Origin: Thozetella sp. PMI_491
Taxonomy: Eukaryota; Ascomycota; Sordariomycetes; Chaetosphaeriales; Chaetosphaeriaceae
Length of the DNA: 64,000 nucleotides
NCBI GenBank assembly: GCA_021432635.1
Contig: MU270106.1
Location: forward strand, 4,087-68,086
Direction: 5' to 3'
Shown: piece after piece, positions 304-36,244 of the stretch
Position numbering within the stretch: the stretch's first letter is position 1
Layout: every line of letters starts with the position of its first letter
Translations under genes and position numbers: made by a program
Notes under the pieces: generated by a model
What the model was told of the DNA's origin: nothing
Database searches by the model: none
The model's input: the letters and a program-made list of their open reading frames with translations, nothing else

Positions 304-3300
304 ATGGCAACCATGGCGAACTCGGTGGATTACGGCAGGAGACTAATTCCTCAGATCCTTGATGATCTCGCCGCTTCTGAGCCAGATCGCATCCTATATT
401 CGATAGCGAAATCTTCGGATATATCCCAGGGCTTTCAGCAAGTATCTGCTCGTACCTTTGCGAAGGCAGTCGACAAGACTGCTTGGCTGCTCCGCAGCCA
501 GATCGGAGAGAGCGCGACGCTACAGTCTGTGGGCTACATTGGGCCTCGTACGTTCTGTCCTTGAACTCTCGGGTGGTGAACGTAACGAACGCTCGCACGT
601 ATTCCTCTCTTGAGCTACTTTACTGATGATACCTAGATGACCTCCGGCACATTCTCTTGACATACGCCTGTGTCAAGGTCAACTGCACGGTCTGTTCCCA
701 TCCACCGGCATGCTGCGGGCACGTCGTTCAGCCAGCTGACCGTCTATTTCTCCTTCTCGCACAGGCCTTGTTTCTTTCCCCCAAAAACAGCACCGAGGGC
801 GCTCTGGCGGTCCTCGAGGCTGCCAAGTGTGATATCTGGGTCAACCCGGGCGGCAAACGGTCCACTCTGGTAAATGACTTCCTGCAGCAACGCCCTATGA
901 AAGTTATCGACTTGCCCAAACTTAGCGAGCTTCTCAATGCCGAAACGACTGAGCCCTACCCGTACACCAAAACATGGGACGAAGCTATTGACGACCCGTT
1001 CTGTCTCTTGCACACCTCCGGCTCAACGGGACTGCCAAAGCCTATCGTATGGTCGCACGGACTGATTGGCACAATGGATGCAGTCCGGCTCCTCCCTCCG
1101 GCTGACGGCGACGGCGGCATGGCTCCGTGGACGAAAGGATGGGACGAAGGCGATAGGATATACTCATCGTTCCCGATGAGCCACGTACGTTTTGCTTCCC
1201 GTGGTTGTCTGCATGATTGTTAACGCATCACTTCGTACTAGGGAGCTGGTATCATCATGAACATTCTGATACCTTCGCTCTTCCGTCTGCAATGCATCAT
1301 GGGCCCCCCAGGCGTAATACCCAACATGCACCTCCTAGATTCTATAGCAGAACATGGAAAGATCGACATCTGGAGCATGATTCCTTCGCTTGTCGATGAG
1401 CTTGGCGAAGCTCCCGATGTCTTGCAGAAGTTCAAAACGTCGAAATTTATCTGTGCATCTGGAGGTAAGAATCTTTAACGTCATTTCGAATCTTGTGGAC
1501 AGACTGTGTTGATTTACTTCGGGACGCTAACATGAATCTTAATGAAGGGCCGGTCAGCCCAACTGTTGCCTCCAAGGTGAATGACACAATCCGTGTATTG
1601 AACCTAACGGGTACGACTGAAGGGTTATTCATCGGGAATCTATGGGTAGATAGGGAAGATTGGTTCTACTTTGCCTTCCATCCCTTCTCTGGGTTTGAGT
1701 TTAAGGAGGTTGAGCAAGGCATATATGAGCACTGGGTGCACCGCAACGAACACGCGCCTCTCTTCCAGGGCATTTTTCACACATTCCCAGATCAGCAGAG
1801 TGTCAACCTCAAAGATCTGTATACGAAACACCCCACCAAGCCCGGTCTCTGGGCCTATAATGGCAGGAATGACGACATTGTTGTTCTGTCCAATGGATAC
1901 AAGATATCACCTTTGGATACAGAAGCTCTGGTCACGACCCATCCGGCGATCGAGGGTTGTCTCATGGTAAGCAAGCAAGCCGCAGCTAGAGAGTCGCAGA
2001 ATCTGTCCCCCGGAAGAATTGTTCCATCACTAAAGCGCATGCATCTCTCAGATCGGCTCCGGAAAACCTCAAGCCGGCCTTCTCATTGAGTTGAAGGATC
2101 CAGCATCGGGAAATGATGAACTTTTCGACAGCATCTGGGCTACGGTAGAGAAAGCCAATGCGGTGTCTCTCCATAAGAACCAGTTGATGAGGGACTACAT
2201 TGCTTTCGCAGAGCCGAGCAAACCTTTCATCCGCACTGATAAGCGAACCGTCAAGCGACGTGCTACCTTGGCGCTATATGCCGACTACATTGAACGTTTC
2301 TACGAGTCTCGGGTGGCAGATGAGGACGTCCAATTCCTGACCATTGACACCAGCTCAACGGAGTCTACCACCCGTGCTGTCCGCCATATTTTGGTCTCTC
2401 TGATCCCGGAGCTCAAAAACGCCTCGCCAGACGAGGATATCTTCAGCTTCGGATTGGATTCACTACTCGTGTTCCGAGCCGTCAAATCCATTGGAGCCGC
2501 TACGGGGCTGAAGACTCGTTTTACTCCCCGGCTTCTCTACGCAAACCCCACTCTCGAAAAGCTGGCGGCCACTATCGTGCGGCTGGTGGCCGAGAAGAAA
2601 GCAGCGACAGCTAACGGTCCATCGTCGAGCGAGCCCGAGGATCCAGAGGTCGCCAAAATGAGAAAGCTAATGGCACTACATAAGTCTCGGCTTTCTGCCA
2701 AGGTGAATCCATGCGATCTGATGAATCCCAATATCTACGTGGGAATGAAGTTTTACATTCCCTTGCGCGAAGGCGTCTCGTTTGAGCAAGCCTATGGAAG
2801 GCTACAAGAGGGCCTCCGCCGCACAATGGAGCTGATTCCGGAGCTTGAGGGCAAGGTGATGCGTTGCTCGGAGCATGAAATGGGATATAAAAAAGGCGAC
2901 CTTCGGATCACCCTCCCCCCTCTCCCATCAACGGCCACCGCACAGCCCGAGTCTCCGGGCCCTTCCCGGGGTCCAAGGCAGCTACGCTTCCAGGATCTGT
3001 CCAACATTCTCCCTTCTTTCGAAGCGCAACGGGCGACTGGGTTCTTATCCTCGGCATTCCGGGACGAAGTGTTCACTGGGTGCCCATGGTTCCCGGCTCT
3101 TCCGGCAGATGTCCTGTATGCACAGGCCAACTTTGTAAAAGGTGGTTGTATCCTAGCCTTCAACCTACACCATGCGGCATTTGACGGCGCCGGTGTCATT
3201 ACTGCGTTGCGGGTCTGGGCCGAATGTTGCAGATATCTGGAAGGAGACACATCTGCGACGTGCAGCTGGCTCGATCCTGAGAGCCTCAACCGCAACCTGC

Positions 3301-4259
3301 TATCCGTTCTCTACGAGCTAGAAGGGTATGCCAAACCAGCATACGAGGTAGACCCCAACGTGTGGGGTTTCCTGGGATTTCCAGACCCAGCGGAGCTTCA
3401 GAATGGAACCAATGGACATCAGTCGGTGAAGTCGGCGGTGCCCCTGGAAAACTCTACTCTGCCTGTTGCACCTCCCTTCCCGCGGAAGTTTGCCTGGCCT
3501 CCCACCCCCCCGGCGGATGGCCGCCAGATGACGTCTTCGACATTCCTCATCTCGCCCGAAGATGTTGAAAAGTTACGGCAAAAGGTTCTTGCTGACCCTG
3601 AAGCAAAGGGCCCCCTGGGTCCGGTGACCTCAATCAGCGACATGATACAAGCGTTCTTCTGGCGCGCGGCGATCAAAGCGCGGTACCGCGTGGCAAAGGA
3701 ACTCCGGGGAGAGTCTTTCGGCCCTGACGACATATCCATTGTGGAGATGCCCATCGACGCGCGCCCTTACTTCTCCTCACTGCTCCCAGCGTCTTATATG
3801 GGAAGTTGTCTTGTGACTAATCGCCCCTACATGCCTGTGGAGGAGCTTTGCGCAGCGGAAACGAGCCTTGGGCGTATCGCCTATATCTTCCGTGAAGCCG
3901 CGACGCGGATTAGTCCATCACTAGTGCATGATGCCTTCACACTTCTACAGTCTATCCCAGATTATAGCATGCTGACCAATGCTTGTATGGGTCTTGGAAG
4001 CATGCATCTTATGATGAACAATCTCATCCTTTTCCAGACCAATGACATTTCATTTGGCGGACAGTTTTTCGACAACGACGGCGTGCCCGATACCGTTCGA
4101 ATACAGATGGACCGGTTTAACACGGCATTTAGGCTGCTACTGATTCACCCTATGCGAGAAGATGGGGGCGTCGAGCTGCTACTAGGAACACTACCGGAGG
4201 AATTTGACATGTTGGTAGCGGACGAAGAGTTTTCTCAGTACGCCAAATTTATGGGATAA
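304..4259 (+). CDS. NRPS-like synthetase: adenylation-thiolation-acyltransferase
   Basis: Spliced model: 304-547, 637-689, 765-1184, 1242-1464, 1548-1966, 2052-4259, giving 1188 aa. All introns are GT..AG and the joins restore family motifs across each boundary. The adenylation domain (about 20-500) carries HTSGSTGLPKP (near 182), NLTGTTEG and NGRNDDIVVLSNGYK. A carrier domain follows (about 555-625) with FGLDSL, the serine near residue 590 being the phosphopantetheine site. The last 500 residues hold HHAAFDG (827-831 as HxxxD) and NDISFGG, which fits a PF02458-type BAHD/trichothecene-acetyltransferase fold; there is no reductase or thioesterase. The enzyme would activate a carboxylic or amino acid, tether it and acyl-transfer it. 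As I recall, adenylation, thiolation and transferase follow the isocyanide synthase domain in A. fumigatus CrmA; here that synthase is a separate gene at 11982. The substrate cannot be read from the sequence. A second in-frame ATG lies at 313. Confidence 0.9.
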
Positions 4260-5923
4260 ACATATAATAGTGTGTCGCAAGGCCTTCACGAGAGGGCAAA
4301 TCCCAATGTGGGAAACAAAAACTTGGAAAAAAAACAATAAAAAAGCAAAGGTATAGTTGGGCTGGTGGAAGTAGGAACGACGGCTGCGGAGGAGCTGAGG
4401 TAGAAATCCAGTAGTTGTCATAATATTTTACAGTGTTATGAAATGAAAACTATAGCAAGTGAGAATTCTACTGGAAGAACTGGAAATGCGTGATTCTAGG
4501 GAACAGTGTGTAAAAGTCGCCTGAGGGAACCCCCTGGATGAAACGTCGAGCGAGCTTAAACGCCTGTAATAGGCAGGCTTGTCTTCAAAAGTGAAGGTTT
4601 TATTCTGGGGTGGGGGCGGGGAGGGAGGATTGGTAAAAAAAAAAAAAAAAATTCTTTTATTTTTTCTTTATTTTTTTCCCTTTTTTTATTTTCCAAAAAT
4701 TACCCTCACTAATTAGGAAATTACTAAAATGCTTTATTTTCTCTTGAAAAAAATTATTAGAGTTAAAAACATATGCAATTAAAATACGGTCTTCTGGTTC
4801 CATGGGTCTGGTGCTGGAGATGAGCAAGTTCGCGCAAGAATCCTTCTGCTGGGCCACGTTTTGGGTGTTCCTCTCTTTGGTATCCTAGTTCACACCCATT
4901 ACTGCAGGGTTGTGGCGAGCTGTCTGCAGCAAGGCTCTAGACCAAGGTGTAAAACTAAGGGTTCGATTGCGTGCGTCAGCCTCTCAGTCCCAGTTTCCGA
5001 GCTTACCAACATCATGTTAACACGGGCAACCGGTGAGTTTCGGACCGATTATGGAGAATTCTGCGGCTACTTTTGGTTGTCATAGTTCTCGAGAGTTGCA
5101 GTTCTTTGCATGACCAGTTGCTCTCCGCGCCAAGATGTGTAGGCGCCCTCAAACCTGTGGGGGGTTACCATGGTTAGTCCTATAGGCGGTGAGAGCAAAG
5201 AGACGAACTCCTCGCCGTGTGCCGAGTGACTGCATCAGCCCATCGGACTAATAAGCAATCAGCAAGGGAGCACCAAGTGCCCGATACCATTTAACAGGGT
5301 CGAGAGTGCTGGCGAGGGATATTTCCCGTTTGGGCATGTTTTGTTTTTGGGACCAAGGCAAAGTAGCACCAATACGCCACAATTTATTTAGGCATGTCTT
5401 TGGTCGGTACCCAATCATTTAGCTAACCGCAGATGCCGTCACCAAAATGTGGTACTCACCTGTAATGCATTCGGATCTGCAACCTCATAACCCGTTACAC
5501 ATGGATACCTATGTACTTGAGTGAGTTCATGGGTTAGCTAGCCCGCTAGTCAAGTCGAGACTAGCGGCGGTGTTCTCATGCGTAGAACTTCCTTTTTAGA
5601 CTTTCACCGAAATAAGACACGGTAGAAATCCGAGTTTTCGTAAGTTATCTTGGCTCCGAGTGATATGGGTAAGCTTGCTCTACCTGTGGAGTATCCTGCT
5701 GGAAGGACTGGTACAGTTCCTGCAAGCCTTTCTGTTTCGATTCACCTTCCTCACTCTTCCCACTTTCGCCTCTTATGTTTCCTCGCGTGCGTGTCGCTTG
5801 TGACCTCGTCTCGTCATTGCCGTGGTACTTTCTCTTGTCCCTGGAGTAGACCCTGGCTTACACACTTGCCCCTTCACGTCTTGACGACGCAACTAGCCTG
5901 CAATAAACAATTCGGGGTCAAGC
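4260..5923. other. Intergenic, 1.66 kb, with an AT-rich low-complexity patch
   Basis: This stretch lies between the NRPS-like gene and the ABC transporter gene. Positions 4635-4651 are a run of A, followed by a T-rich and then AT-rich tract to about 4780. Short ORFs here lack family motifs or splice support. The last few hundred bases are pyrimidine-rich and probably hold the transporter promoter, but no specific site could be named. Confidence 0.6.
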
Positions 5924-8900
5924 ATGTCCGCTGTGTCCAGCCAAGAAAGTAATGACCACAACAAATCCGGCGATTCCATCGTTAGCAGTAAGACAACTGA
6001 AGACGACGTTGCCACGTGTGTTGCGGAAGAGACCGGCCGTTCAAACCACTTCCAGCCGCAAAACGTTTCCATGGCCGACAATTTCGCGTCTTCCGGCGAC
6101 GTTGGGGAGCATGAGGAAGAACTAGAGCGACGCGCTTCCGCCGTACAAGCTCTTGCAAGCTCCTACTCACGCCGCTCCGGAGGTGGTCCTCGTGGCAATC
6201 CTTTTCTAGCGGAGGCCGACTCAGTGCTCAACCCGAAGTCTCCAAACTTCAACGCCAAAGAGTGGGCAAAAGCAATCGTGGAATTAATATCCTCAAGCGG
6301 TACATCGCTCCGCTCTTCTGGTGTCTGCTTCCAGAATCTCAGCGTTCATGGCTTTCGCACTTCCACCGACTATCACAAAGATGTGGGCAACATCTGGCTC
6401 TCGTTCGGCGCTCGTCTCTTTCAGAGTTTGGTTGACAAACAGCGCCCGCGGGTCGACATCTTGACTCAAATCGATGGTCTGGTGCGAAAAGGGGAGATGC
6501 TTGTTGTGCTAGGACCACCAGGTTCTGGCTGCTCTACATTTCTCAAGTCCATTGCCGGAGAAGCAAATGGTATCCATGTTGGAGAGGGCTCTTATTTCAA
6601 CTACCAAGGTATGCCGCGGAAAATCCTCTGCTGTCAGTGTGACAGAAGCCCCAAATGATCTTGCGTCCTGTCGTTTGCCGTTCTCGACTCTTCCATCCTT
6701 GGAGACTAAAACTCGACATAGGAATGACGGCGAAAGAAATGCATTCCCATCACCGTGGCGAAGCACTTTACACCGCTGAGCTTGATGTGCATTTCCCGAT
6801 GCTGACCGTCGGAGATACGCTCACCTTCGCCGCTCGCGCCCGCCAACCTCGGGAACTGCCCCCTGGCGTTGACAAGAACGATTATATCAGCCATCTTCGA
6901 GACGTCATTATGGCGGTATTTGGAATTTCCCACACGGTCGATACTATGGTGGGGAATCACCTCGTCCGCGGTGTTTCTGGTGGTGAACGGAAGCGAGTTA
7001 CGATTTGCGAGGCAGCCCTTTCGGGGGCTTCCTTGCAGTGTTGGGATAATTCGACCCGCGGGCTCGATTCTGCCAATGCAATCGAATTCTGCAGGGCTCT
7101 TCGTCTTGAGACGGAGCTCTTCAACAGCACTGCCTGCGTTTCCATATATCAATCACCTCAAAGCGCTTACGATGTTTTCGACAAGGCTACGGTGCTTTAT
7201 GAAGGTCGTCAGATCTTTTTCGGCCACGCTAACAAGGCCAAGCAATATTTTATTGACCTTGGCTTTGAGTGCCCTGCGCGTCAGACTACTCCCGACTTCC
7301 TCACCTCAATGACCTCGCCCAGCGAGCGGATCGTCCGGCCTGGATTTGAAGCCAGAGTTCCCCGAACCCCAGATGACTTTGCAGCTGCCTGGAGGAGCAG
7401 CGCTGAGTTCGCAGCCTTGCAAGCCGAGATTGAGCAGTATAAGATTGATCATCCCATCAATGGCCCCGATACGGAAGCCTTTCGCGCCTCGAAGCATGCC
7501 CAGCAGGCCAGAGGGCAGCGCAAGAAGTCTCCCTACATCCTGACCTACCCCCAGCAAATTCAGCTATGTTTGTGGCGAGGTTGGAAGCGATTGACAGGCG
7601 ACCCGAGTGTGACACTATTTGCCTTGACGGCACATTCTATCATTGCCGTCATTGTCGGTAGCCTGTTCTACAATCTAGGCGAGACGTCTTCCACCTTCTT
7701 CAGTCGCGGAGCCTTGCTTTTCTACTCTTGTATGCTGAACGCATTCTCTAGTGCCATGGAGGTTAGTCACCCTGTCTGCCACTTTAGCTCCACTAGACTA
7801 ACAGCATTAGATCATGACCTTATTTGCGCAACGGCCGATCGTCGAGAAGCACCGCCGATACGCTTTCTACCATCCCTCTGCAGAGGCGGTAGCGTCTTTG
7901 ATTTGTTCCATGCCACACAAAATTGTCGACTCGATCATTTTCAACCTCATTATTTACTTCATGACGAACCTCCGCCGGGAACCAGGAGCATTCTTCTTCT
8001 TCTTGCTCACTGCCTTCTCCACGGTATTGGTCATGTCGATGGTGTTCCGCACAATCGCCTCAACGTCGCGCACACTGTTCCAAGCTCTGGTGCCTGCAGG
8101 CCTCCTCATGCTAGATCTGATCATCTTTGTGGGCTTTGTCATTCCCCCAAAGGATATGCACCCCTGGTGTCGATGGCTGAACTACATCGACCCGATAGCC
8201 TATGCGTTTGAATCGCTTATGGTTAACGAGTTTCACGGGCGCAAATTCCCATGTGATCAGTACGTGCCTAGCCAGGATCTACCTGAATACGCCAATGTGA
8301 GCGGTGCAAACCAAATCTGCAGAGCTGTGGGTTCCAGGCCGGGTCAGGATTATATTCTTGGTGACGACTTTGTGCTCTCGAACTATAATTACTCCTGGGA
8401 CCACCGATGGCGGAATTACGGTATCATTATCGCATTCACCGTTGCCCTTATGGGCTGCTATTTGGTCGCCGCGGAATTCATTTCCGAGAAGAAATCGAGA
8501 GGTGAAGTGCTGCTGTTTCGACGTGGCCAAAAGCCAGCTGCGGCCAAGCTTGCCGACAAAGAGCTCAAGAACCCTGAGGCTGCCTCTTCCAATATCACCT
8601 CCATCGTCAGCACTGAGTGGGAACGTGGCGACAACAAAGAAAGCAACGGCATGATTCAGCAACAGAATTCGGTATATCAGTGGCGTGACGTTTGCTACGA
8701 CATTAAAATAAAAAAAAAGACTCGCCGCATCCTGGACCATGTCGATGGCTGGGTTAAGCCTGGAACTTTGACCGCGCTGATGGGGGTATCTGGCGCCGGA
8801 AAAACCTCTCTGCTGGATTGCCTGGCCGGTCGGCCCTCTATTGGCATCATTACAGGCGAAATGCTTGTTAACGGCAAACCTCGGAATCAGTCTTTTCAAA

Positions 8901-10624
8901 GAAGCATTGGCTATGCGCAGCAACAGGACCTCCATCTACAAACTTCAACTGTCAGGGAGGCCTTAAGATTTAGCGCACTCCTCCGTCAGCCTGCGGATGT
9001 CTCTCGAAAAGACAAGCTTGCATACGTGGAAGAAGTCATCAAGCTATTGAACATGGAGGAATATGCTGATGCTATTATCGGCGTTCCTGGTGAAGCTCTC
9101 AATTCTGAGCAGCGCAAGCGACTTACTATTGCCGTTGAGCTTGTGGCTAAGCCGCCTTTGCTACTTTTTGTGGATGAGCCAACTTCGGGCCTTGATTCAC
9201 AAACGTCTTGGGTTATCTTGGATCTTCTCGACCACTTGACCAAAGCCGGTCAAGCCATCATCTGCACCATTCACCAGCCCTCTGCCTTCCTTTTCGAACG
9301 CTTCGACCGGCTGTTACTGCTGGCGGAAGGCGGGAAGACTGTTTACTTTGGTGACATTGGAGAGAAGTTCAAGACCATGGTCAGCTATTTCGAGCGGAAT
9401 GGAGGGCATCCATGCCCCCCGGACGCCAATCCGGCCGAGTGGATGCTAGAAGTTATCGGTGCGGCGCCTGGATCGAAAACTACGATCGACTGGTTCAACA
9501 CGTGGATTGAAAGCTCGGAATACCAAGAGGTACAAATTCAGCTAGAGAAACTGAAGGTAGAAGGTCTAAAGTCAGATGTGAAAACCTCGATCGATATCTC
9601 CTCCGACGATTCAAACAGCGAGTTTGCAGCTCCATTTGCCGTCCAGCTATACGAAAACCTCTCCCGCGTCTTTCAGCAATACTGGCGCACTCCTACATAC
9701 ATCTATTCCAAGATTTCCCTTTGCACAATTATCCCCTTGTTTATCGGATTTGTCTTTTTCAAGGCTGAGAACAGTATCCAAGGCCTTCAAAGTCAGATGT
9801 TCTCAATCTTCAACTTGTTCACCATCTTTGGCTCAATCGTACAGCAATCTATACCACAATTTGTTATCCAGCGATCGCTGTATGAGGCCCGCGAAAGGCC
9901 AGCGAAAGTCTACTCATGGAAGGCCTTCATCTTGTCGCAAATCATGGTTGAGCTTCCATGGAACTGCTTGATGGCGGTCTTTATGTACTGTTGCTGGTAC
10001 TATCCTATTGGGCTGTTCCGAAATGCCGAGCTTGAAGACCAAGTATCGGAAAGGGGGGCGCTTGTGTTCCTGTTTCTGCTCATGTTTATGATCTTGGCCG
10101 GAAGCTTCTCGACATTTATGGTTTCCGGCTTCAACGCTGCCTCGAATGGTGGTACGCTTGCAGACTTGATGTTTAGCCTCTGCATGATGTTCTGCGGCGT
10201 TCTCGTTCCGGCCAACAGCCTCCCTCGCTTCTGGACATTCATGAACCGCGTGTCACCGTTCACTTATCTTGTGGGCGGCGTACTGTCATCGGCGGTAGGG
10301 AATGCCAAGGTAGTCTGCGCCGAGAACGAGCTCCTGTCCCTCCAGCCCAGGAATGGTTTGTCTTGTGGCGAGTACCTAGATGCCCATATAGGGACCTACG
10401 GTGGCTATCTCGTGGACGTTAACGCTACGGCGAGCTGCTTGTTCTGTCCCATGTCGGAAACGAACAAGTATCTCGAGACCATTAGCGTATACTACGAGGA
10501 CCGTTGGAGGAACTTTGGTATCCTGTGGAGCTATGTCATCTTCAACACTGTTGGGGCACTGTTGATTTACTATTGGGCACGCGTACCGAAGAGAAGTGCC
10601 GTCGAAAGGCAGAAGAAGGAGTAG
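5924..10624 (+). CDS. PDR-type ABC-G multidrug transporter
   Basis: Spliced model: 5924-6608, 6722-7761, 7811-10624, giving 1512 aa, the usual full size for fungal pleiotropic-drug-resistance pumps. The layout is NBD-TMD-NBD-TMD. NBD1 has the fungal degenerate Walker [10 protein letters not shown] (about 197-205, Cys where Lys is usual), signature VSGGERKRV and Walker [16 protein letters not shown]2 has canonical GVSGAGKTS (about 900), degenerate signature LNSEQRKRL and [13 protein letters not shown]. This asymmetric pairing is normal for the PDR family and is not a defect. It is probably a plasma-membrane ATP-driven exporter of hydrophobic compounds. Its place between the A-T-transferase and the isocyanide synthase, all on the + strand, suggests export or self-protection for the cluster product. 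It could instead be a general azole-type pump, since specificity cannot be read from sequence. Confidence 0.95.
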
Positions 10625-11981
10625 GTAGATGGGCACAATGATGTGTTCCCTTCGACAGCAACAGGTTGGTCGGTCGCGATTCAGAAGGACGAAAGCAAAC
10701 CCACAGGGGAAGGAGGCACACGCACGCACATACACACACTCTTCAAAACCCGGGTAAACACGAGCAAATTCACATGGAGATGAATTACACCGAAAATTGT
10801 AGCCACCTTTTATTTCTAGCATCTAATAAACTGCATTATGGCGAGAGCCTACTCACACCAACGTTTGCCGGATGTATGCATCCCTCCCTTTCATTGCCCG
10901 TTGGCGTCTTCTAAGAAAGATGCAGTTTGTCAGTAGAGATGGATGGCTTTGGTCTCGATGCGCCGCACTTCGCCGAGAAGCAACGACATCCACCCTGAAG
11001 GTGTAATATTGACTTCCATAAAGTGGTGTGGTTGAAATCTTACGTTGCATTTTTCACCGGTGCTACCCCCAAAAAAATTATGATAGCTCAATAACGGGCG
11101 GCTCTGCCCACAGCCCCTCTTTTTTGCGGCAGTTTCCGAGCTCGTAGCTAACAAAATGCCTCGCATTTCGCTACCTGCTATCGTAGTGGTATCGTGACTC
11201 GGGATGTTACCTTCTAGGTCCCGGTAAAGGAGGTAAGGACCCACACACATGCTACCCTTGAATTCAGCCTCCGCCGTCCACCGTCTTGGTCTGCACGGAC
11301 CCATATTAGACAACCATCCCTGGCTCTGTGGAATAAAGGGCCGGCTTACTGCGGCGTGGGCTCCCTCGGCGCTCGAGTATTATTCACCTGACACATGCCA
11401 GACGCACTGGTTGGAAAGCTGCCAAGGTTTTGAGCTCGCACGACGTGCGCCACCGAAGGAGCCTCGAGCGGGGCTACCCACACCGGGGAGCTAGACCCGC
11501 GAGCGCCGGACCTCGGGGCGGAGGAGTGGGAAGGGGGCAGGGAGTGTGAACATGAGTGAGGACACTTCACCGAAACCAAAGTTATAGAGATCCTCGTGGT
11601 CAGAATCCCTTTTAGCGCTAAAAGAACTAAAGCGGGTTAGGGATAATTTTGCAAAAGTGACCTAGCCTTTCGAAATTTTTGTAGGAGCCAAGGCGCTGAG
11701 AGCGCCCTAGTTGCGACTCTTAGGGCAACGAGCCACCGTCTTGGTACGGCCATATTAGACCGAATGTTGCCGCGCTTTAAGCTTGCTTCAGTTTAGAGGG
11801 CTTAGATGGAGTTGACCAAGCTTCTATTGTGCCTAACCCGAAAGCAACTGGCGTGCCACCAAGATTCTACGCCTATCTCGCAATTCCGGCTGTCTACCTC
11901 TTGACCAGAGATTCCTTCGGAGAACTGCCGTCCACATCCCTCCCACCCCCCCTTGGGCTTTCTTTAACACTTCGCTTCACC
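10625..11981. other. Intergenic upstream of the isocyanide synthase gene
   Basis: About 1.35 kb without a convincing gene. It contains two copies of a short motif, at 11278-11309 and 11733-11760 (see findings), and a pyrimidine-rich leader just before the ATG at 11982. The frame is open back to 11829 but offers only GTG there. Confidence 0.55.
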
Positions 11982-13746
11982 ATGTCTGTCGCACAAGTCC
12001 CGCCTCGCACAGCGGACGCCACCGTGTCGATTGTTCTGGGCCAGGAGAAAGTTTCTCGGCCTTTACAAGTCGCGATCGATCTAGCAGGCCGCACCCTTGA
12101 CGATAGAAGAGCACCACCCGTCCCCCAGACTGCTACAAAGGCAGTTGTACCTTCGCCCGAGGAGAAGGCCCCCGATACCTCCCAGGCGCCGAAAGTGGAA
12201 GGTCTAGCTCGCGAGGATGAGAACGCTTCCAATGCCCATCCGGCCCCAACAGAGGCGGACCCCGGGCAGGACGACGTGAAGAATACTGAAGACCCTAAGC
12301 CTATGGCAAACACTATTGAAGACAAAAAGAATCCTAGTGCCGCTCGTGATGTAGTGGTAGTGGACCTCGTCTTCGAAGATGTCCAAACTCCCAATATATC
12401 TGCGGCCACGACAGAGGCAGGAGACGACAAGAGTGCCAAAAATTCCTCTCCCGCTACATCTGAGGAAAGCTGGACTCTTGACGATAAGAAAGCGCCCGGG
12501 GTGTCTCAGGCTCGGATTGAGGTGGTCACGCCTATCCTAGGTGAAGACGAGAGTGGCTGCACGGAAGTCGAAGAGACCTCTAGAAAAATATTAGATGTCA
12601 TCTTCCAATATGCTCTCAACAAATTCGACGACACGAAGGAACTTCATGCCGTAGGCGCGCCTAAGTTCCTCTCTCTCATCACAGGGTTTGTCAGGGAAGG
12701 AAAGCGGCTTGAAATGTGCCTACCTGCATTTCCGTTCAAGTCCGCAAACAAGGTCTACAAGGTGCTCGGTACCCTGCCTGATAAAGCGGAAGAGCTAGCA
12801 CTTGGCAGGCTGAATTCCATGTGCGCCTGTATCGCGGAGTTCTACCCGCCCAGTGCCAAGCTTACCATTATTTCCGACGGTCTTGTCTACAATGGTTTGT
12901 GCCATCAGCCCATGGGAAGTGTCATAGCTAATTTGATCTTGTTGGTAGATTTGTTGAGTATTTCGGACCAAGACACCTGGGCTTACGGAGAAGCACTGCG
13001 CATCATGGCTGCGCAGAAGGAATTCACACATATTGGTTTCTCCAGGCTTCGAGATCTGGTGACCTTTCCCAATATGCCAGAGAATCTGCAAGAGATATCT
13101 TATGTCGCTAACGCCACCAACTTTCGCCACTTCTTACTCAATAAGTATGGCAAGGACGACATCGACATCGATCACGAAATAGCAACGAACCCAGACACGC
13201 TAATGACTTATCGAGGATATTGCAGGTTTCTTGAGTCGGACTTGCAATACATATTTGTGACTGGAAACGGGAGGTCGAACCACGGCTATAAGAGAGACGT
13301 GAAGTATCTGGCGAAGCAGATGTTGATCCGAGGATATGTAAGTCGATGGCTTCATTGTTTTCCCAGTCCTACATACCCCACCGAAGTAACCCATGGCAGG
13401 GAAGATGGTGTACTAACCCGCATTGCAGGCTTTTGCAGCGGCAGTTAAGGCCAATTTTCCGGACCATCTCCGTCTTTCTATTCATCAATCTACGGGGGAA
13501 CACAAGGTATCTATGAGCTTGCTCAACACAAAAACCGGGTTCACTACTCCGTGGCACTGCAGCGTTGCTTTGATGGCGGATGGGGAGTGGATCAGCGCCC
13601 CAATGGGTGATTTCAAGGAGGATCGTTTGCTTGAGGTTATCCATGAGAATGGACGACCGAGCTATTTCCAAGAAGTGATGCGCAAGCGCCCTTATCTTAA
13701 TGATACTAAAGCATATGGAAGCAAGCAGCAGGCAGTCAAGACGTGA
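11982..13746 (+). CDS. Isocyanide synthase, DIT1/PvcA family
   Basis: Spliced model: 11982-12894, 12949-13337, 13429-13746, giving 539 aa. The ATG has a good context (caccATGtc). The 54-nt first intron (12895-12948) is in frame and stop-free, so it would pass unnoticed as coding; removing it restores SDGLVYND-LLS-ISDQDTWAYGEA, the form expected for the family. The second intron has a TACTAAC branch site. Family motifs: LPAFPFKSAN (247-256), LVYND, WAYGEALR, RLSIHQS (about 448-454) and TPWHCSV (474-480), matching PF05141. Bacterial PvcA/IsnA convert an amino acid and ribulose-5-phosphate to an isonitrile; yeast Dit1 acts on tyrosine in dityrosine formation. The substrate here is unknown. The first 195 residues are unusual: acidic, Pro/Ala-rich and degenerately repeated (LDDRRAP at 39-45, LDDKKAP at 166-172), probably disordered. 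This is the core enzyme of the proposed cluster. Confidence 0.92.
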
Positions 13747-15102: not shown

Positions 15103-16863
15103 TTAAGAAACATTTCTCGGAACTAGATAAATAGGCAGAGATGGCTTCAGCCATATGGCATGGGCGAGCTGTCGATCTATCCATCCATCGCTTCCTGGGG
15201 CGAGTTTCATGTCAAAATTAAAGATCATATGCGCCAGTGTTAGACGGATTTCTAAGATAGCCAGGCTTCAAATCGGTTAGCACGACGAATGAGTGTATGG
15301 CGACCTTTAACCTACTTCTGACCGATACAGTTTCGCGGGCCTACGCTGAATGGTTGCAGTGCATCCCAGGCATCGTGTGCTTCCCCTTTCACCATCCAAC
15401 GCTCTGGGATGAACGACCACCTATCAGTCCAATTGTCCCGGCTAAAGTTGGCGGACCAATTGTTGATCTCGACATATGTCTATGCGAAGTCCATCAGTAG
15501 ATGAGTCTCGATACTATCACGGCGGTTTGGCGACATGAACTTACGCCGGAAGGCACAAAATGTCCGGCAATCTCAGCGCCAACCTTGCCTGGGACTACTC
15601 GCACGTTCCCACCGGCAACGGGCGGATAGCAACGTAGACCTTCATTGATGACGGCGAGCATGTACTCTAGATTATTCACCGACTGCAAAGTGATATCGTG
15701 GGAATGCTTGAACTTGCCCCGGATCTCGTCCTGGAGCTTTGCAAGCTTGTCAGGGTTCTTGCATAGCAGGTAGGTAGCTCCCGAGAGCAGCGTGGCCGTG
15801 GTCTCGGAACCGGCGACAGCCAACAGCATCGAATTAGACCTCAGTTCTGGAAAGCCGAGTTTCTAAGAGAAGAATGGGTTAGCAAAGTGGCTAGGATGGG
15901 CTACTCGAGAAACCTTGCTTACCCAGCCATCTTGCTCTCGAAGCAATCCTTCGATAAGGTCAGGTCGCTCGTCGGCGCTCGCGATTCTCTTCTGCAGACG
16001 CTCTCCGATGTCGTCCAGAACTGCATCGTAGGCAGCATTGGCGCCTCCAATTTTAGTAAGGATTCTGACAACTATACCCAGTCCCAGGTAGTTCAGGGCT
16101 GCCACAAAATCGATAGCTGTCACCGTGTCCAACACGAGTTGGAATAGAGGGCTGTGACGCGCACTGCTCAAGCTACCAAAGTCCTGCCCAAAGACAAGGT
16201 CGCCGACAATATCAAAGGTTGTCCAGATATACCACTTTTCCATTTCTACGGCCTTCTTTCCGCCCTCAGACTTCTCTTTCAGCTGCTGGATAAGATGTTC
16301 GATGTGCCGCATGATGATAGGCTCCTGCTCGCGCAATGCCTTATCAGAGAAGCCATTGGAGATGGCTCGGCGGATTTGCGCGTGCTCAAAGCGATCTGAG
16401 TTCACGATATTGTTCGGCTCGCCGGTGGCATTGTAAAATACGCGGGCTTTAGGCATTTCCTCGTGATGCCCTTTATCGTCGGTCCGGAAGCCATATATGT
16501 CCTTCCATGCCCTCGGGTCGGTAAAGTCAAGCATGTCGGGAGCGGCACGTATGACGGGACCGTACTTGTCGTGCATGTCCTGGTAGATGTGTGGCTTGTT
16601 GCCATAGACATGCATAATAGCCCATGGTATCTTGGATGCGCGGTTCAGGAGCGGGCCAGGGAAGTTGCGGAGCGGGTGAAAGTAAACATTGTACACCAGC
16701 CCCCAAATGTTGTAGACAGCAAACTAGCCAATACACATTAGCCTTTGCACTTCCATCGCGTCATTTACCAGAAGCGTAGTACCAAAACGGCCCCAATGCC
16801 CAGATAAAGTTTGACCGGAGAGATTCCAGCGGTCGCTTCGAGATAGCTATCGAGCAGCGCCAT
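15103..16863 (-). CDS. Cytochrome P450 monooxygenase (first of two)
   Basis: Spliced model on the minus strand: 16863-16783, 16723-15923, 15862-15545, 15479-15316, 15265-15103, giving 508 aa. An N-terminal hydrophobic anchor (about 18-42) leads into HPLRNFPGP. The I-helix has AGSETTAT, the K-helix EGLR, the PERF-like motif FIPERW, and the heme loop FSVGPRNCIGQ with Cys near 451. In raw frames the gene seems to stop before the heme loop; two short introns (15480-15544 and 15266-15315) recover the complete C-terminus, so it is intact. The least certain join is the first (donor gtacta at 16782). It is an ER-bound heme-thiolate oxygenase of the CYP65-like fungal type. It closely resembles the P450 at 19193, from which it diverges in orientation. 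In yeast the Dit1 isocyanide-synthase homologue works with a P450 (Dit2), so a tailoring role fits. Confidence 0.9.
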
Positions 16864-19192: not shown

Positions 19193-21023
19193 ATGTTTGC
19201 TGAAATCTTTTCGTACGCTGGGATAGCCAGTGTTAGCATCCTTGCGGCAGTTGGGATAGCTGGCGCAGCAGTATGGCTACCCTTCATATAACAAGCACTT
19301 GATCCAAACTAACAAATAACCCCGAGGGCATTGTCTACTGGCTCCTAGGCTGCATCTACAATCTTACACTACATCCTCTCGCTCGTTTCCCGGGCCCGCT
19401 CCTCTACCGCGCCACCCGCCTTGCAACCGTAAATCGCATGCTCAGGGGCGATCTTTATTCTGACCTCTTGAGACTGCACAAGAAGTATGGCGACGTAGTA
19501 CGTATCGCGCCTAACGAACTCGCGTTTGCCCATGAAAATGCGTGGAAGGAGATCTACGGTCACCGCCCCAATGGCGGTGACGGCCCCGAGGAGATTCCGA
19601 AGTGGACCAAGTTCTACGCCAATACAGGCATGCCGCCAAGCATCGTCAGCGAGGATATAAAAGGCCACGCCCTTCTACGACGGCTCCTTGCGCCCGGCTT
19701 CAGCGAAAAGACCATGCGCGGCCAGGAGCCTATCATCGGGAGCTATATCGACCTTCTGATGCACCAGTTGCACAAGCAATGTGTGGTGCGGCAGATTGAT
19801 ACCATGGATGAAAACGGCAAGAAGAAGGCAAACCTTCAGGTTGGTGCCCCTAAGTCTCTCGACCTGACCAACTGGTACAACTGGACCGCGTTTGATGTGA
19901 TTGGCGATCTGACCTTTGGCGAACCATTTGGCTGTCTCGAGCGCGGTGCCTACGACCCATTCGTTGGCCAGCTCAACATAACGGGAACGGTCGCAGCAAT
20001 CATCTCGGCGGCGAAATACATGGGTTTGGAACCTATCGTCTTCCCCGTTTTGCGCTTTTTCATCATCAAGCGCCGCCCGATGCAAGTCGAAATGGCGGAC
20101 AAACTACGGAAACGAATGGCTCTAAAGGAGGAGCGGCCCGACTTGATCGGTGGCCTGATAAGGAAGAAGGAGACCATGGTCTGTTTCTCTATACCTTGCA
20201 GGTAGTAGAAACTTTATTTGGCTAACCAACTGTCTAGAATTGGGATTTCGCACGTGTCAGGATAAATGCCGGTGTCTTATGTGTAGCCGGCTCTGAAACA
20301 ACAGCAACGCTGCTTTGTGGTGTCACATTTCTCTTGTTAAAGCACCCAGACATCTTGGACAGGCTCAAGCAGGAAGTTCGATCGACCTTCAAATCGGAGG
20401 ACGAGATTACCCTCACATCTGTCAGCAAACTCGAGTACATGCTCGCGTGTTTGAACGAGGCTCTGCGAGCCTACCCGCCAGCTCCTGTTGGCTTCCCACG
20501 GGAAGTTCCCAAAGGCGGTGTCATGATCAATGGCCAATTCATCCCGGAGGGCGTAAGTCTTCTCGGCACCCTACACCCATTTAGCAGAATAACCAGACTG
20601 ACAGGTGGCCCCAGACTCTAGTTGCTGCGTGGCAGTGGGCCATCTACCACAACGAAAAGAATTTTGTAGATCCGTTTGGCTTCCGCCCCGAGCGATTCAT
20701 GAACGACCCCAGGTTTGCCAATGACAAGTTCGATATGCTGCAGCCTTTCTCCTTCGGTCCAAGAAACTGCATCGGTCGGCAGTATGTGCCTCTTCTTCTT
20801 CTTCTTCTTCCGTCTTGGAGGCTAATCGATATTATCTAGCCTCGCATATGCTGAAATGCGGCTCATTCTCGCCCGTCTCATATATAACTTTGATCCACAA
20901 CTTGTGGACGAAAAGAAAAACTGGCTGGATCAGGAGGTATATGTCCTGTGGCGAAAGCCTTCGCTTAACGTTTTCCTAAAGCCAGTGAGCCGAGAACAAG
21001 GGGAGAAGGCAACTGTTAAATGA
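19193..21023 (+). CDS. Cytochrome P450 monooxygenase (second of two)
   Basis: Spliced model: 19193-19270, 19327-20178, 20238-20552, 20615-20781, 20840-21023, giving 531 aa. A hydrophobic N-terminal anchor (about 8-40) precedes HPLARFPGP. The I-helix AGSETTAT, K-helix EALRAYPP, FRPERF and heme loop FSFGPRNCIGR (Cys near 467) are all present. The first intron (19271-19326) removes an in-frame stop and its branch site is actaac. The intron at 20553-20614 is set by alignment to the P450 core. It is probably an ER-anchored oxygenase of the same family as the enzyme at 15103, sharing long stretches around the I- and K-helices, so the pair probably arose by duplication. Its likely role is oxidation of the cluster product. 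Its orientation and 2.3-kb separation from the first P450 rule out one shared core promoter. Confidence 0.92.
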
Positions 21024-23389: not shown

Positions 23390-24447
23390 ATGGCCATCAT
23401 GAACCTACTATGCCCTTTAAAACTGCGCTTGATCGTGGTTTTACTATTTTCGAGCATGTTGCCCTCAGTGTGCGGACAGGACTTGACACCGGAACAGCAA
23501 GCCAACACCAACCGGACATTGCGTATTGGCTATGTAAGTTATCCCATTTCCATAAAAAGTCATACCCAAGGTACCCAAACGGTAGCTAAACGGCTACTAT
23601 AGGTCGTCTATGAGGGATTTACGCCACTAGATATCTGGGGTCCAATGGAGCTTCTTTTTCAGGTATGTATCGTAATACATCAACTGGTGGTCTAACTATC
23701 AGTACTTCAACCGGTGGTACTAACTAAAACCGAGCTCTCTTATACGCGCAATATGACCCTATCTGTTATATCGCACAAAAAGGGCCCCGTGAATGCTCGA
23801 TCACCACCTCACAGTGCCGGACAGAATCCTGAAATCGGGGCTGCGGACTACAGCCACATGATCAATCCGCAGATCATCGCCACGCACACGTTCGAGGATG
23901 CTCCTCATCTTGACGTTATTGTTGTTCCCGGCGGTGCGGGCTACTTCCATCTGATCGAGGCAAACAACACAGTAATGGAAGATTTCCTCGTACGCCGCGC
24001 TCCAGAAGCCGACTACTTGGTTAGTGTGTGCATCGGGTCCGTTGCCTTCGCACGTGCGGGATTGCTGTCCGGCCGCCGAGCCACAACGAATAAGGCATCA
24101 TGGAAGTGGGCGACGAACCCCAGCCACGGCAGTAATGTCACGTGGGTACCGAGCGCCCGTTGGGTTCAAGACGGCAACATCTGGACAAGCTCCGGCGTCG
24201 CTGCGGGCATAGACATGATGTGGGCTTTCCTCAGGCACGTGTACGGCCCCTACCTCGACAAACTCGTCAACAGCATCGAATACACACCCCACACGGATCC
24301 GGACTGGGATCCGTTTTCGGTAGCGTTCAAGGTAAAAACCCTTTGGCTCACGTGCGTGCAGGTAGTGGAGTTAACGTGGTCCAGGTCCCAGGTGCGAGCC
24401 AAAATCGAACTCTTGCAAAGGACTGTGACGCGCCCCTTCCGACTTGA
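23390..24447 (+). CDS. Secreted DJ-1/PfpI family protein, isonitrile-hydratase-like
   Basis: Spliced model: 23390-23533, 23603-23662, 23735-24331, 24385-24447, giving 287 aa. A second ATG at 23399 is possible. The N-terminus is a signal peptide (hydrophobic 12-27, SVCGQ cleavage region), so the protein probably enters the secretory pathway. The DJ-1/PfpI fold is shown by PLDIWGP (Asp 58), VVPGGAG (132-138), and the nucleophile elbow SVCIGS with Cys 167, followed by AGLLSGRRATTNKASW. Pseudomonas isonitrile hydratase, which turns isonitriles into N-formamides, belongs to this superfamily and uses an equivalent Asp and Cys; there the residue after Cys is Thr, here Ile. Close to an isocyanide synthase, a role in detoxifying or converting an isocyanide is attractive but unproven, since fungal DJ-1/PfpI proteins are numerous and mostly uncharacterised. 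Apparent internal stops all fall in introns. Confidence 0.85.
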
Positions 24448-24900
24448 TTCTGTCAATTCGAGGACACTAAATCCAGGTTAGAGCAACGCGGCACGTGCGA
24501 TGGTTTAACCTGGCCTAGGTGGAGCAGGCATTATATGGAAACGGTCAGGAGGCACCTAGCGCGAGTGAGGGTGCTAGCGCTTCACCTGTCCTCTCCATTG
24601 CGACCTCATCATGCCATTCTATCTTATTATTTAGTGCAACTGCCAAATTACTATCAGCAATTCAATGGCGATGGTACATGTTCAAAACTGAAAATCATTT
24701 GGGCCGCAATTTTCGTTTCCATTAAGAGTGACCAGCGGCTTTACAGCGGGACAGGAGTGTCTGAAAGGGGCTAAGATGACTAGCATTGGTTCAGCGGCCG
24801 TATTAGACATGCGCTGCCGATAGCATTAGACAAGATGATGCACCAAGTAAGTACGGCTGAAGGCTCATAGACCGCAAGAGGTAACGTTGACTCTCCGGAA
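24448..24900. other. Intergenic between convergent DJ-1 and MFS genes
   Basis: Short 3'-to-3' spacer. It holds a third, partial copy (24786-24808) of the TTGGT...TATTAGAC motif seen upstream of the isocyanide synthase gene. Nothing else was recognised. Confidence 0.55.
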
Positions 24901-26676
24901 TTAAACGACATTGCCCCTAACCTGCTGAACCTTCCTAAGGTCCACGTCCCGCCACGCAATGACTGCAGAAATTCCCAGGATCCAGACAGCCATAGCCGGG
25001 ATCAGCAATGTTCTCTGAGCGTCGCTGTAAGCGTTCTCGATAGCGATGCGAGTGTCTGATCCGACCGGGAAGGTTAGCTGCGTAGCCACGCTGCCATATA
25101 TCTTCTGAAGATTAGGCAGGTCTTTAGCAGGAAGATGGTTGGCGAGTGCTTTGGGAAAGACGGATGTCCAGATTGCCGCAGATAGAGTAGATCCGATACT
25201 GCCCCCGATGCTCGAGAACAATCCCTCCATGGCTAGAATGACGGCGACGTACTGGTGCGAGACCGCAGCCATGCCAGCGACTTCGTCGCAAAGGATGATA
25301 AATGCGTTGCCGATAGACAGAAACATTTGGGCCAAGATGAAGTAGCCATAATGCCAACCAGGAGTAGCGAAATAGTACAAGAGGCCCAGTGCGAGAATGG
25401 TAAACGGAAGCCCAAGGAAGAGGCTGACATATTTGTAGTGGCCAGACCGATTGAGGACCCAGCCGGTAACGAGCGAGAATACTGTGAGGCCGACTTGGTA
25501 GGCATTGGTAATATAGGTGGCGGTAGTAACGGATTGGTTGCCGACAACCATCAGGTAAGAACTGAAAAAGGGCTTCCAGCAGTACTGGCTGAGGAACAGT
25601 GTAAAACCTAGGACACAAGCACCCAAAACTTGGCGGTCAGAGAGGTAAGAAAACGGAAGAAAACTGATAGGAGCGAAGAATCTTTCCCAAACGACGAACG
25701 CCACCATGAGCACAAAGCCGAATACAAGGAAACAGATGATGAGAGGAGATCGCCATCCGTCGGGTTGCAAGGTATAAATATTGAAAGGCAGCAGGAAAAG
25801 CGCCAACCCTGCCGTCAAAAGAACCAGGCCAACAGCGTCGAATTCGCGGCAGTAATGAACAACAGACTCGAAAGCTGTGCGCTTGCTGTCTCGCTTTGGG
25901 AGAAGGCCCTGGGTCTTCGCTTTGTGGATGTTCCAGAAAAAAAGAATAATAAGCGGAAGAACGACGACTGGCGTGATAATCGAAAATGTGCCAAAGGCCC
26001 AAGCCCAACCTGGCCCGTAGAGAAACGCTTGCGCGATTGGGCCGGCCGCCCAAGTGGTAATGAGACTGGGCGAGCCAGCAAATGCATACATAAGGCCACG
26101 GCTTTTTAGTGACGACGTATCCGCGATGATGATTTGGACGGTGTACAACAACGAGGCATGGCCGACTTGCCAAAAAACATCGGCAGCGGCAAACTGGTCA
26201 ATAGAGCGGCAAGCTGCCATTATGACAAAGCCGAGCTCAGTAATGAGCGTGGCGATCACAATGCCGACGTGCCGCCCCCAAACATCGAGGATCTTGGCGA
26301 GCGTAAGGTTAGAGACGCCGTTAACGATGCTGGCCAGGACAGTGACAGTAGGGGTCAGCGAGTGCTCGCCAAAAGTCGATGTCACAAAAGGCGTCAACGT
26401 TCCGATCACGGTTCCCTCGACCAGCACGAGAAAGTAGATGATCCACATCATCACATAAGCTGTGACAAGCGAGGTCTTGTTCCATACAGATGCCACTGCC
26501 TCCATGTATTGAACGCCCTCCTGGGTCTCCCCTTTGGTTGGGCCCTGGTCGTCGTGTTTGGAGTTCGAGTCGCCATCGGGGTCACGCTCCGGGCTGTCGA
26601 TGATGATGTCGGTGTCTTTTGCGACAGCTGCATCGCTGTGTGACCGGCTATTCTGAGGTTCCAGAGCTTCGTCCAT
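24901..26676 (-). CDS. MFS transporter, siderophore-iron transporter (SIT/ARN) type
   Basis: Single-exon gene of 591 aa. A charged, Asp/Ser-rich cytoplasmic N-terminus (1-65) is followed by about 14 hydrophobic segments. Its pattern matches the fungal SIT family (Sit1/MirB-like): a first-helix motif around WIIYFLVLVEGTVIG, LAKILDVWGRHVG after helix 2, and RGLMYAFAGSPSLITTWAAGP. Family members at the plasma or vesicle membrane import ferric siderophores by proton symport, but some move other metal complexes or toxins. Isocyanides bind transition metals, so transport of a metal-isocyanide complex would fit the cluster. It is the last recognisable member of the cluster and converges on the DJ-1 gene. 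Without substrate data it could equally be an ordinary siderophore importer. Confidence 0.88.
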   Translation of the reverse strand: MDEALEPQNSRSHSDAAVAKDTDIIIDSPERDPDGDSNSKHDDQGPTKGETQEGVQYMEAVASVWNKTSLVTAYVMMWIIYFLVLVEGTVIGTLTPFVTSTFGEHSLTPTVTVLASIVNGVSNLTLAKILDVWGRHVGIVIATLITELGFVIMAACRSIDQFAAADVFWQVGHASLLYTVQIIIADTSSLKSRGLMYAFAGSPSLITTWAAGPIAQAFLYGPGWAWAFGTFSIITPVVVLPLIILFFWNIHKAKTQGLLPKRDSKRTAFESVVHYCREFDAVGLVLLTAGLALFLLPFNIYTLQPDGWRSPLIICFLVFGFVLMVAFVVWERFFAPISFLPFSYLSDRQVLGACVLGFTLFLSQYCWKPFFSSYLMVVGNQSVTTATYITNAYQVGLTVFSLVTGWVLNRSGHYKYVSLFLGLPFTILALGLLYYFATPGWHYGYFILAQMFLSIGNAFIILCDEVAGMAAVSHQYVAVILAMEGLFSSIGGSIGSTLSAAIWTSVFPKALANHLPAKDLPNLQKIYGSVATQLTFPVGSDTRIAIENAYSDAQRTLLIPAMAVWILGISAVIAWRDVDLRKVQQVRGNVV

Positions 26677-29776: not shown

Positions 29777-30824
29777 ATGAAGTTCTCTCACGTTGCCTTG
29801 GCCGCCCTGCCCGGGGCTATGGCATGCACCTCCAATAACTGCGCTAGAGATATTCAGGCCAGCCGGTCCAAGGATATTCCGCTTGAAACCAGAACCGCTG
29901 ATTGCAGCCGATATATGACGACCTACGTTTACATCTCCCCGTAGGCTCCTTGGGTCTCCACCTTGAACTTGGCAAATTGTTCTAACCAACAACAGAACGG
30001 CCACGGCCACTCCTCCCGTGGTCTACAACCGCAAGATGAGGCGGGAGCCTATGGAGAAACGTGACCCTGTCACCGTGGTCGGCACCGTCCCGGCATACGC
30101 CACTCAATGCTCCAACGCCGCAGCCTACGCCTCCGCTTGTAGCTGCTGGGGCTTCACTCCGACTGTCATCACGGTCGCTACACCTACGACTACGGTGACG
30201 CTTCCTGCCCCGACCTGCTTCCGTGGCCTCGAGTGGGCCTTTTACGGAGAGACAGTCGGCACGGACAAGGGTCAGATACCTCACAACGACGAACCGTATG
30301 GAAACTATCGCGCCACTTTCAACGTCGACAACAGTCTCAAGGGCTTGACTCCATCCGTGAAGGGTGTTTCGTCTTCCATCAGCTATGGCGCGACCAACGG
30401 GAACTGCGATGGCAGCCCGATTGTTGACGGGACGACACTTGGTGGCTACAGCGAGGCTTTCGCGGCGGTCGTTCACCGCGGCTACTTTATTCCAGACGTG
30501 GCTGGCTCCTACACGGTGACAGTGTCCGGTGACGATCTTGCCGCAGTCTGGATCCGAACTCTTGCCAAGGGAGGCTGGACTATCGCTAACGCAAATGCAA
30601 ACACCGAATACTTGTCGGCGCCCGGGACTTACACGTTCACCGCTGCGGCGGGAGAATACGTCCCTATCCGTATTCTCTACGTCAATGCACAGGGGTGCGA
30701 AGCATTTTCGTTCGACATCACTAGGGCCGATGGCACGTCGGCAATCGGCCCGTCGAGCTTCGTGACCGGCTGCACCGGCGTTGCTGCCGCTCCTGCCTAT
30801 CCTGCGTGGAACACGGAATCGTAG
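29777..30824 (+). CDS. Secreted GLEYA/PA14-like domain protein
   Basis: Spliced model: 29777-29940, 29996-30824, giving 330 aa. The intron has branch site ctaac and joins a signal-peptide exon (MKFSHVALAALPGAMA) to the main exon. After a Thr-rich linker with several cysteines (about 60-145), the C-terminal half matches the GLEYA carbohydrate-binding adhesin fold: GLEWAFYG, a YTVTVSGDDLAAVWI strand block, and YVPIRILYVNAQG near the end. Such domains occur in fungal wall adhesins and small secreted lectin-like proteins. No GPI-anchor tail or tandem repeats are visible, so this is probably a small secreted or wall-associated lectin-like protein. The ligand is unknown. Confidence 0.85.
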
Positions 30825-35438: not shown

Positions 35439-36244
35439 ATCTTGGAGAAAGAGGCTATCGCATGCCCCGTGTTGACTCCTGAGCAGGTATAGCCAAAAAG
35501 TGCGAGGGAGCGGCTCGATACGAAAACGCGCTACACCTCCAGAAGAAAATTTTCCGTATTATTGCAGCAATTTTTCTTTTCCGAGCCTACACCCGCTGAA
35601 GAAAGAGGGAGTGAGAAGGGCTGAGTGAGCACAATCAGAGGGACGAGGTGACTGCTGTATCGCTATGAAATGTTGACCTCGAGATCAGGAAATCGAGATG
35701 TAGGGCGGAGAAGTGGGCCCAGGGCGTGTGATTGGGAGAGTAGCCGAGTGACGTGAGCGGCAGTGCGATAATTACCAAGTTTTAGATATTTAGATCACCA
35801 AGCCTATCTCCTTTAGGATTCACAGCCTCCGGCCCTTCTGTGCTACCTTTGCTAAAAAAAAAAAAAAAAAAAAAGAGGGGCTGATAGAAACTTCAGATGC
35901 GCCTTTGAATTACCATTTATGAAGCTTGGGCCGTGGGCATCGCTTCCACGGTGTTGTGGACTCCTAGCCATCTGCTAGACCAATGCCGTCGCCCATTGGG
36001 CCATTCTCTGGCTACTGCCTTACGAAATACAAAGTCGCAGTAAAACATCAAATAGGCATGAAAGGATATTGATAAATCTGGGGAAGAAGAAAAAAAGTCT
36101 TGCGCTATTGGAATCTAGTGCTATGCAACCCTTATCCCCCGAGCCAAATGTACCCCTCTAATTACAATTATGATGCAGGACAGAAGCGTCCATCCAAAAC
36201 ATCCCTCGACCACTCCGGGGTCTTGTGCTCACCTCCTGGACATT
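35439..36244. other. Intergenic with a poly-A tract
   Basis: About 0.8 kb. Positions 35854-35874 are 21 consecutive A. No gene was recognised. The end near 35439 is the probable HET promoter. Confidence 0.6.

Follow-up and report, generated by a model that had tools for sequence, protein, structure and literature searches.

Here we describe a locus of the fungus Thozetella sp. PMI_491 in which an isocyanide synthase (ICS) and an enzyme with adenylation, thiolation (carrier) and BAHD-type transferase domains (A-T-BAHD) are encoded by separate genes on either side of an ABC-G pump. The window, by which we mean the whole stretch of 64,000 nucleotides that was analysed, is part of contig C92. On its + strand lie, in order, the A-T-BAHD gene (304-4259), a gene for a full-size ABC-G transporter of the pleiotropic drug resistance (PDR) type (5924-10624) and a stand-alone ICS gene (11982-13746). 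The ICS and A-T-BAHD genes are 7.7 kb apart with the pump gene in between, and their order is opposite to that of the corresponding domains in CrmA, the fused enzyme of Aspergillus fumigatus. A first-pass annotation had read this layout from the letters alone, and gene models and Pfam matches confirm it at these coordinates. As judged from sequence comparison, family resemblance at the E-values obtained is beyond chance.

With hand-set splice sites, the A-T-BAHD gene runs from an ATG at 304 through six exons (304-547, 637-689, 765-1184, 1242-1464, 1548-1966 and 2052-4259) to a stop at 4259 and encodes 1188 aa. Pfam matches to AMP-binding, AMP-binding_C_3, PP-binding, TRI-like_N and Transferase (PF02458), each above its cut-off, bear out the earlier description of a nonribosomal peptide synthetase-like (NRPS-like) gene with adenylation, carrier and BAHD-type transferase domains. 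Relatives were listed for 120 of at least 650 matches (from 8000 candidates), and the ICS profile PF05141 is found in 36 of them and not in 84. Conservation of the catalytic residues is near complete in these relatives: 120/120 have the BAHD His (residue 827 of the window protein) and Asp, and 118/120 have the carrier Ser (residue 590; 36/36 fused, 82/84 unfused). In amino-acid-activating domains an Asp at the A4 position binds the amine. Across the A4 stretch FPMSHGAG (residues 235-242 of the window protein), Asp occurs at none of the eight columns in the 116-119 relatives aligned there; the A4 Asp of the proline-activating 6o6e lands, in a weak alignment, on Gly240. An A4 stretch that lacks Asp agrees with an acid without a free amine, its nitrogen being part of an isocyanide or formamide already. 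The best solved relative of the BAHD domain is trichothecene 3-O-acetyltransferase (2zba, E 3.9e-10), which we take to be a stand-alone CoA-dependent enzyme; unlike it, the window domain sits behind a carrier domain. One A-T-BAHD protein of fungal type, P0029, is filed under the moss Sphagnum balticum with 79% identity to the window protein and is perhaps a contaminant.

The ICS gene runs from an ATG at 11982 to a stop at 13746 in three exons (11982-12894, 12949-13337 and 13429-13746), and its 539-aa model is letter-identical to database protein P0121 of Thozetella sp. PMI_491. It matches PF05141 with an E-value of 1.8e-94. The motifs LPAFPFKS, SIH and TPWH, from which a DIT1/PvcA-family gene had been proposed, are all present and align with LPAFPTKS, SIH and TPWH of the solved isonitrile synthase 9dhm; the PvcA structure 3e59 also matched. 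The core is preceded by a low-complexity N-terminal extension of about 190 residues. This long, acidic N-terminus (window 11982-12540) holds TLDD[RK][RK]AP twice, and the 246 residues before LPAFPFKS are the most in any listed relative with the motif (118/120; median 115). Searches and trees used a model with one intron retained, whose 18 extra residues all fall outside the kept columns of the careful ICS tree described below. Among the 120 ICS relatives listed of at least 940 (from 8000 candidates, the window's own protein included), A-T-BAHD domains occur in none, under a length limit that excludes full CrmA.

A six-frame PF05141 search of the genome found a sole other ICS, which lies on contig C62 and is followed by a TauD dioxygenase domain. 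Since this one further ICS carries TauD, no fused CrmA was detected in the genome by that search. ICS-dioxygenases of the XanB type share the PF05141 core with the window ICS and differ from it in carrying TauD; the C62 gene served as our outgroup. It marks a second isocyanide cluster of the genome (~1815-8336 in locus L007), in which the ICS-TauD gene (~3960-6131, - strand) has pieces of a P450 (1815-3541) and a gene for an FAD-binding protein (7363-8336) near it.

ABC domains occur in 17/120 listed ICS relatives and are of two types. In P0216, P0218, P0223, P0232 and P0237, from Tothia, Venturia (two), Fonsecaea and Lindgomyces, the ICS is followed by a second-half ABC-G ATPase domain that lacks the membrane part of a pump. 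This domain is perhaps dead or regulatory, because Gln replaces the Walker B Glu in 4/5 of the proteins and no such motif was seen in the remaining one. In P0133, P0136, P0143, P0148, P0151, P0154, P0157, P0161, P0184, P0206, P0224 and P0236 the ICS runs on into the first part of a PDR pump. These proteins come mostly from lichen fungi, the Fusarium protein P0236 being a remnant, and merging of gene models is possible.

Both window enzymes are collinear with A. fumigatus CrmA (P0104), to which the ICS is 62% identical over CrmA residues 15-334 and the A-T-BAHD protein 58% over 421-1577. The ICS belongs to the CrmA clade by this identity and by the trees. The A-T-BAHD protein falls together with the A-T-transferase half of CrmA itself, at a long distance from three further NRPS-like proteins that the genome encodes, and not with unrelated NRPS-like enzymes, a grouping that would have told against the idea that CrmA's functions are held here as two proteins. 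That idea stands, all CrmA domains being present across the pair. CrmA, as described by Lim 2018 and Won 2022, has the same four domains and the same catalytic motifs in its A-T-BAHD part; it is a single protein with the ICS leading, as in 36/36 listed fused proteins, whereas the window has two genes in reverse order with a pump between and no protein that joins ICS to A-T-BAHD.

The pair is not confined to Thozetella. We matched pairs by eye, by species and same listed contig in the two lists of relatives, in a table that is not exhaustive, and found at least 28 further pairs of separate ICS and A-T-BAHD genes that share a listed contig; they come from 27 fungi, two of them from Ilyonectria. 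Many further genomes keep the two genes linked. Locus tags are consecutive in 11 of the 28 pairs and 2, 5 and 6 apart in three; 7/28 pair contigs are shorter than 50 kb. Contigs exceed 1 Mb in Niveomyces, Plenodomus lindquistii, Ilyonectria b, F. oxysporum f. sp. rapae, F. culmorum and Paramyrothecium, and there pairing says little because a shared contig is that long; a matching F. venenatum pair on a 9.1-Mb sequence was left out of the table. Distances of the two proteins across 29 pairs, the window included, are strongly correlated (Mantel r 0.846), a value reached in 0/5000 permutations (maximum 0.313). Departures from expected relationships are common to both trees, with Thozetella near Niveomyces and Xylographa apart from other lichens. 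Among the 29 pairs Niveomyces is nearest by identity for both enzymes, and it is the next branch to the window in both trees.

The same partner appears for the pump. Its model of 1512 aa (exons 5924-6608, 6722-7761 and 7811-10624, + strand) wholly contains database protein P0241 (1463 aa, Thozetella sp. PMI_491) and shows the ABC-G/PDR plan of two nucleotide-binding halves with membrane segments, the catalytic residues of the second nucleotide-binding domain (NBD2), Walker A and B among them, being intact. Its listed relatives are PDR pumps, many of them generally named, and Niveomyces is the closest among the matches listed (77%). Further copies lie in the genome on C3 (67%) and C105 (62%). 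In a tree of 33 rows, whose other rows were assigned to orders by general taxonomy, the Niveomyces pump is the sister of the window pump (100/100), the two lie inside Hypocreales (100/100), and the C3 copy groups with Sordariales-type rows (100/99). Trees that kept Hypocreales apart from the window pump (p 0.00016) or joined the pump to the C3 group (p 0.00088) were rejected. Niveomyces belongs to Hypocreales. Because the window pump is placed in Hypocreales and Thozetella itself belongs to Chaetosphaeriales, the pump was likely acquired by horizontal transfer; and because the enzymes show the same Niveomyces link, we infer that the whole cluster may have moved in this way. A separate candidate origin, that the window pump is the one fused to ICS in lichens, is not supported by a ranking against 121 pumps, in which the window pump comes 101st or lower for each of six lichen-type pieces and 56th-103rd for five of the other type.

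The pump may nevertheless be a bystander, or a general drug pump outside the pathway, and we regard this as a serious if somewhat doubtful alternative. Most of the listed relatives bear the names of general pumps (ABC1/CDR4 type or ABC-2), few of them share a listed contig with the pair, and the pumps fused to ICS elsewhere are not the closest to it. Against this, the genome has this pump in addition to the Sordariales-type C3 copy, from which its place within Hypocreales sets it apart (p below 0.001), and the pump's sister, Niveomyces, has ICS, A-T-BAHD and pump listed on one 1.29 Mb contig. The suggestion of a dedicated exporter thus keeps the support of position, extra copy and an origin shared with Niveomyces; it is weaker than the other claims made for the locus, and export would be a putative function.

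Whether the two genes or the fused gene came first was addressed with separately rooted trees. The ICS tree was rooted on the C62 ICS, with 66 rows and, in a careful version, with 52 rows without Lojkania and Pyrenophora, both of which broke the grouping in the 66-row tree. In both versions fused proteins are nested inside solo ones. The A-T tree, a chosen subset of 50 rows without Lojkania, was rooted on the three NRPS-like proteins of the same genome; it places the fused proteins as one clade (100/99) within the unfused, a forced fission root costs 10.5 log units (p 0.022), and the root stays among unfused proteins with either of two outgroups used singly. The split arrangement is therefore probably ancestral, CrmA having been fused later, since separately rooted trees place fused CrmA inside split forms. 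Two independent fusions, hinted at by Lojkania P0024 falling among lichens in the 66-row ICS tree and in a further A-T-BAHD tree, are not supported by reduced sets: a single fused clade is not rejected in the ICS set (p 0.302), and one fusion suffices because in the A-T-BAHD set (41 rows) 16/16 fused rows, Lojkania included, form one clade (98).

From these data we consider it fairly probable that the locus encodes a crm-type isocyanide pathway in an older, unfused form, with predicted chemical and transport steps leading from ICS through A-T-BAHD to the pump. Its support is the homology and collinearity with CrmA, the linkage, the correlated divergence, the kept catalytic motifs and the rooting. 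The stand-alone ICS would convert an amino acid, valine in CrmA systems, to a free alpha-isocyano acid. The A-T-BAHD protein would adenylate this acid and hold it on the carrier serine, its BAHD domain would esterify an alcohol with it (in CrmA systems the acceptor is mannitol), and the adjoining ABC-G pump would export the reactive product.

Several observations weigh against this reading. Dactylonectria macrodidyma, D. estremocensis, Epichloe bromicola and Gyalolechia gomerana hold both proteins with no shared contig entry, and F. lateritium and F. oxysporum f. sp. vasinfectum are also unmatched (different isolates or entries). In only 18/29 pairs do the two proteins have the same nearest neighbour, and the correlated distances could partly be due to shared species history. 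Support for the fused clade in the 52-row ICS tree is only 88/79, and a tree forced to join the ICS outgroup to the fused proteins is worse by 6.6 log units (p 0.163), so that a fission root is not rejected by the ICS data alone. The ICS tree has one outgroup, and the outgroups of the A-T tree sit on long branches, about which the tree program gave a warning. Mac1-type copper sites are not enriched in the three promoters, where DHNTGCTCA was found once with ~1.8 expected.

The ICS rooting bears on a later fission, in which CrmA was fused to begin with and its break-up into two genes produced the split forms; fused forms are moreover known in three classes, according to the available part of Won et al. 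(PMC9381783). We judge fission improbable, given that the A-T data reject its root, long outgroups notwithstanding, that fused proteins are nested in split ones in both rooted trees, and that the window genes stand in reverse order with a pump between. The first-pass annotation had left ancestral form and fission side by side: the ancestral form is now favoured by the rooted trees, and it is the A-T data and not the ICS tree alone that speak against fission.

Downstream of the ICS gene lie further candidate cluster members. A cytochrome P450 of 508 aa (15103..16863, - strand) and a second of 531 aa (19193..21023, + strand), both with hand-set splice sites, are possible tailoring enzymes. A DJ-1/PfpI protein (23390..24481, + strand; splice sites and 3' end tentative) is related to isonitrile hydratase InhA (1.1e-17), and its best match in the PDB is another ThiJ protein, 3mgk (2.1e-33). 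A major facilitator superfamily (MFS) transporter of 591 aa (24901..26676, - strand) was tried as a CrmC homologue and rejected, having MFS_1 as its only Pfam match, no PDB match and one NCBIfam match below cut-off. Elsewhere in the window are genes with HET (heterokaryon incompatibility) domains (33243-35558, 38976-40862 and 59548-62163), a GLEYA-domain gene (29967-30824) and a berberine-bridge-type oxidase (56190-57509). Upstream of the DJ-1 gene DHNTGCTCA occurs 2 times vs 0.55 expected; TTTGCTCA and TGTGCTCA are both without a match in window 1-24 kb. Over the whole window, TGCTCA matches 53 times vs 41 expected (4/100 shuffles as many) and TGTGCTCA 6 times vs 2.3 expected (1/100 shuffles), the latter always outside 1-24 kb.

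These neighbours could instead define two separate pathways, one joining the ICS to the downstream P450s (15.1-21.0 kb) and the DJ-1/PfpI protein (23.4 kb), the other joining the A-T-BAHD protein to the pump. ICS clusters do often hold P450s (34.6%) and isocyanide hydratases (21.1%), as stated in the accessible text of Nickles et al. 2023 (PMC10153163). The at least 28 further linked pairs, the correlated divergence and the fusion of both halves in CrmA make such a division very unlikely. An annotation artefact was weighed because CrmA itself spans two annotated genes shown to be one mRNA (available text of PMC5974471): a single gene cut in two is ruled out for the window by the 7.7 kb gap, the reverse order and the intervening pump, and may apply to some relatives with merely adjacent locus tags, where consecutive tags in a given species could still reflect a mis-split fusion.

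The distinct architecture claimed at first is not new, as both the split and its reading as ancestral are already published for Fusarium. In the part of Nickles et al. 2023 available (PMC10153163), gene cluster family (GCF) 8 of Fusarium pairs a monodomain ICS with a neighbouring, separately encoded NRPS that has a domain called identical to that of crm, and fusion is proposed. GCF 8 holds the closest ICS relative of crm, is Fusarium-specific (primarily 1-2 closely related genera) and makes up 89.5% of 95 clusters with NRPS-like and terpene synthase genes (same source). The window shares its two genes and differs in the pump between them. Terpene synthases are another difference: PF19086, the one terpene family tried, has 12 matches in the genome and 0 on contig C92. 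In F. verticillioides the ICS and A-T-BAHD proteins have consecutive numbers, 08710 and 08711, from two strains. In F. oxysporum, FOXG_09770 and a gene named crmA of the same cluster are reported, in the part of the paper available, as Mac1-bound and upregulated without copper (PMC11563359), unlike the window promoters with their lack of site enrichment. FOXG_09770 (P0075) is an unfused A-T-BAHD as in the window, from which we infer that the F. oxysporum crm cluster is also split. A partial literature search found no published description of the split outside Fusarium. What is new here is the wider distribution of the split, the rooting tests and the origin of the pump.

The locus is thus a system of ordinary kind in an informative form: real and CrmA-related, with a probably ancestral arrangement and, probably, an acquired pump. 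In A. fumigatus, valine isocyanide, N-formylvaline and mannitol esters depend on crmA, the acyl transferase was left open, and CrmA homologs with an extra transporter domain are found primarily in Dothideomycetes (Won et al., PMC9381783, available part). In CrmA one deletion abolishes isocyanide formation and, at once, any acyl transfer by that protein, which hides the role of the A-T-transferase half. Tentatively, and short of an even chance, the free-standing A-T-BAHD protein may be that acyltransferase, esterifying an isocyano acid that reaches it by diffusion from the separate enzyme that makes it, in a two-gene module that would be older than CrmA, would have crossed from one fungal order to another along with a pump recruited from Hypocreales, and would have given rise to CrmA by one fusion. 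In split species the halves are individually removable, making the job of each directly testable. Mining by the fused enzyme alone overlooks many clusters, those of lichen fungi included, and the locus gives a probable direction to CrmA evolution: two genes, then fusion.

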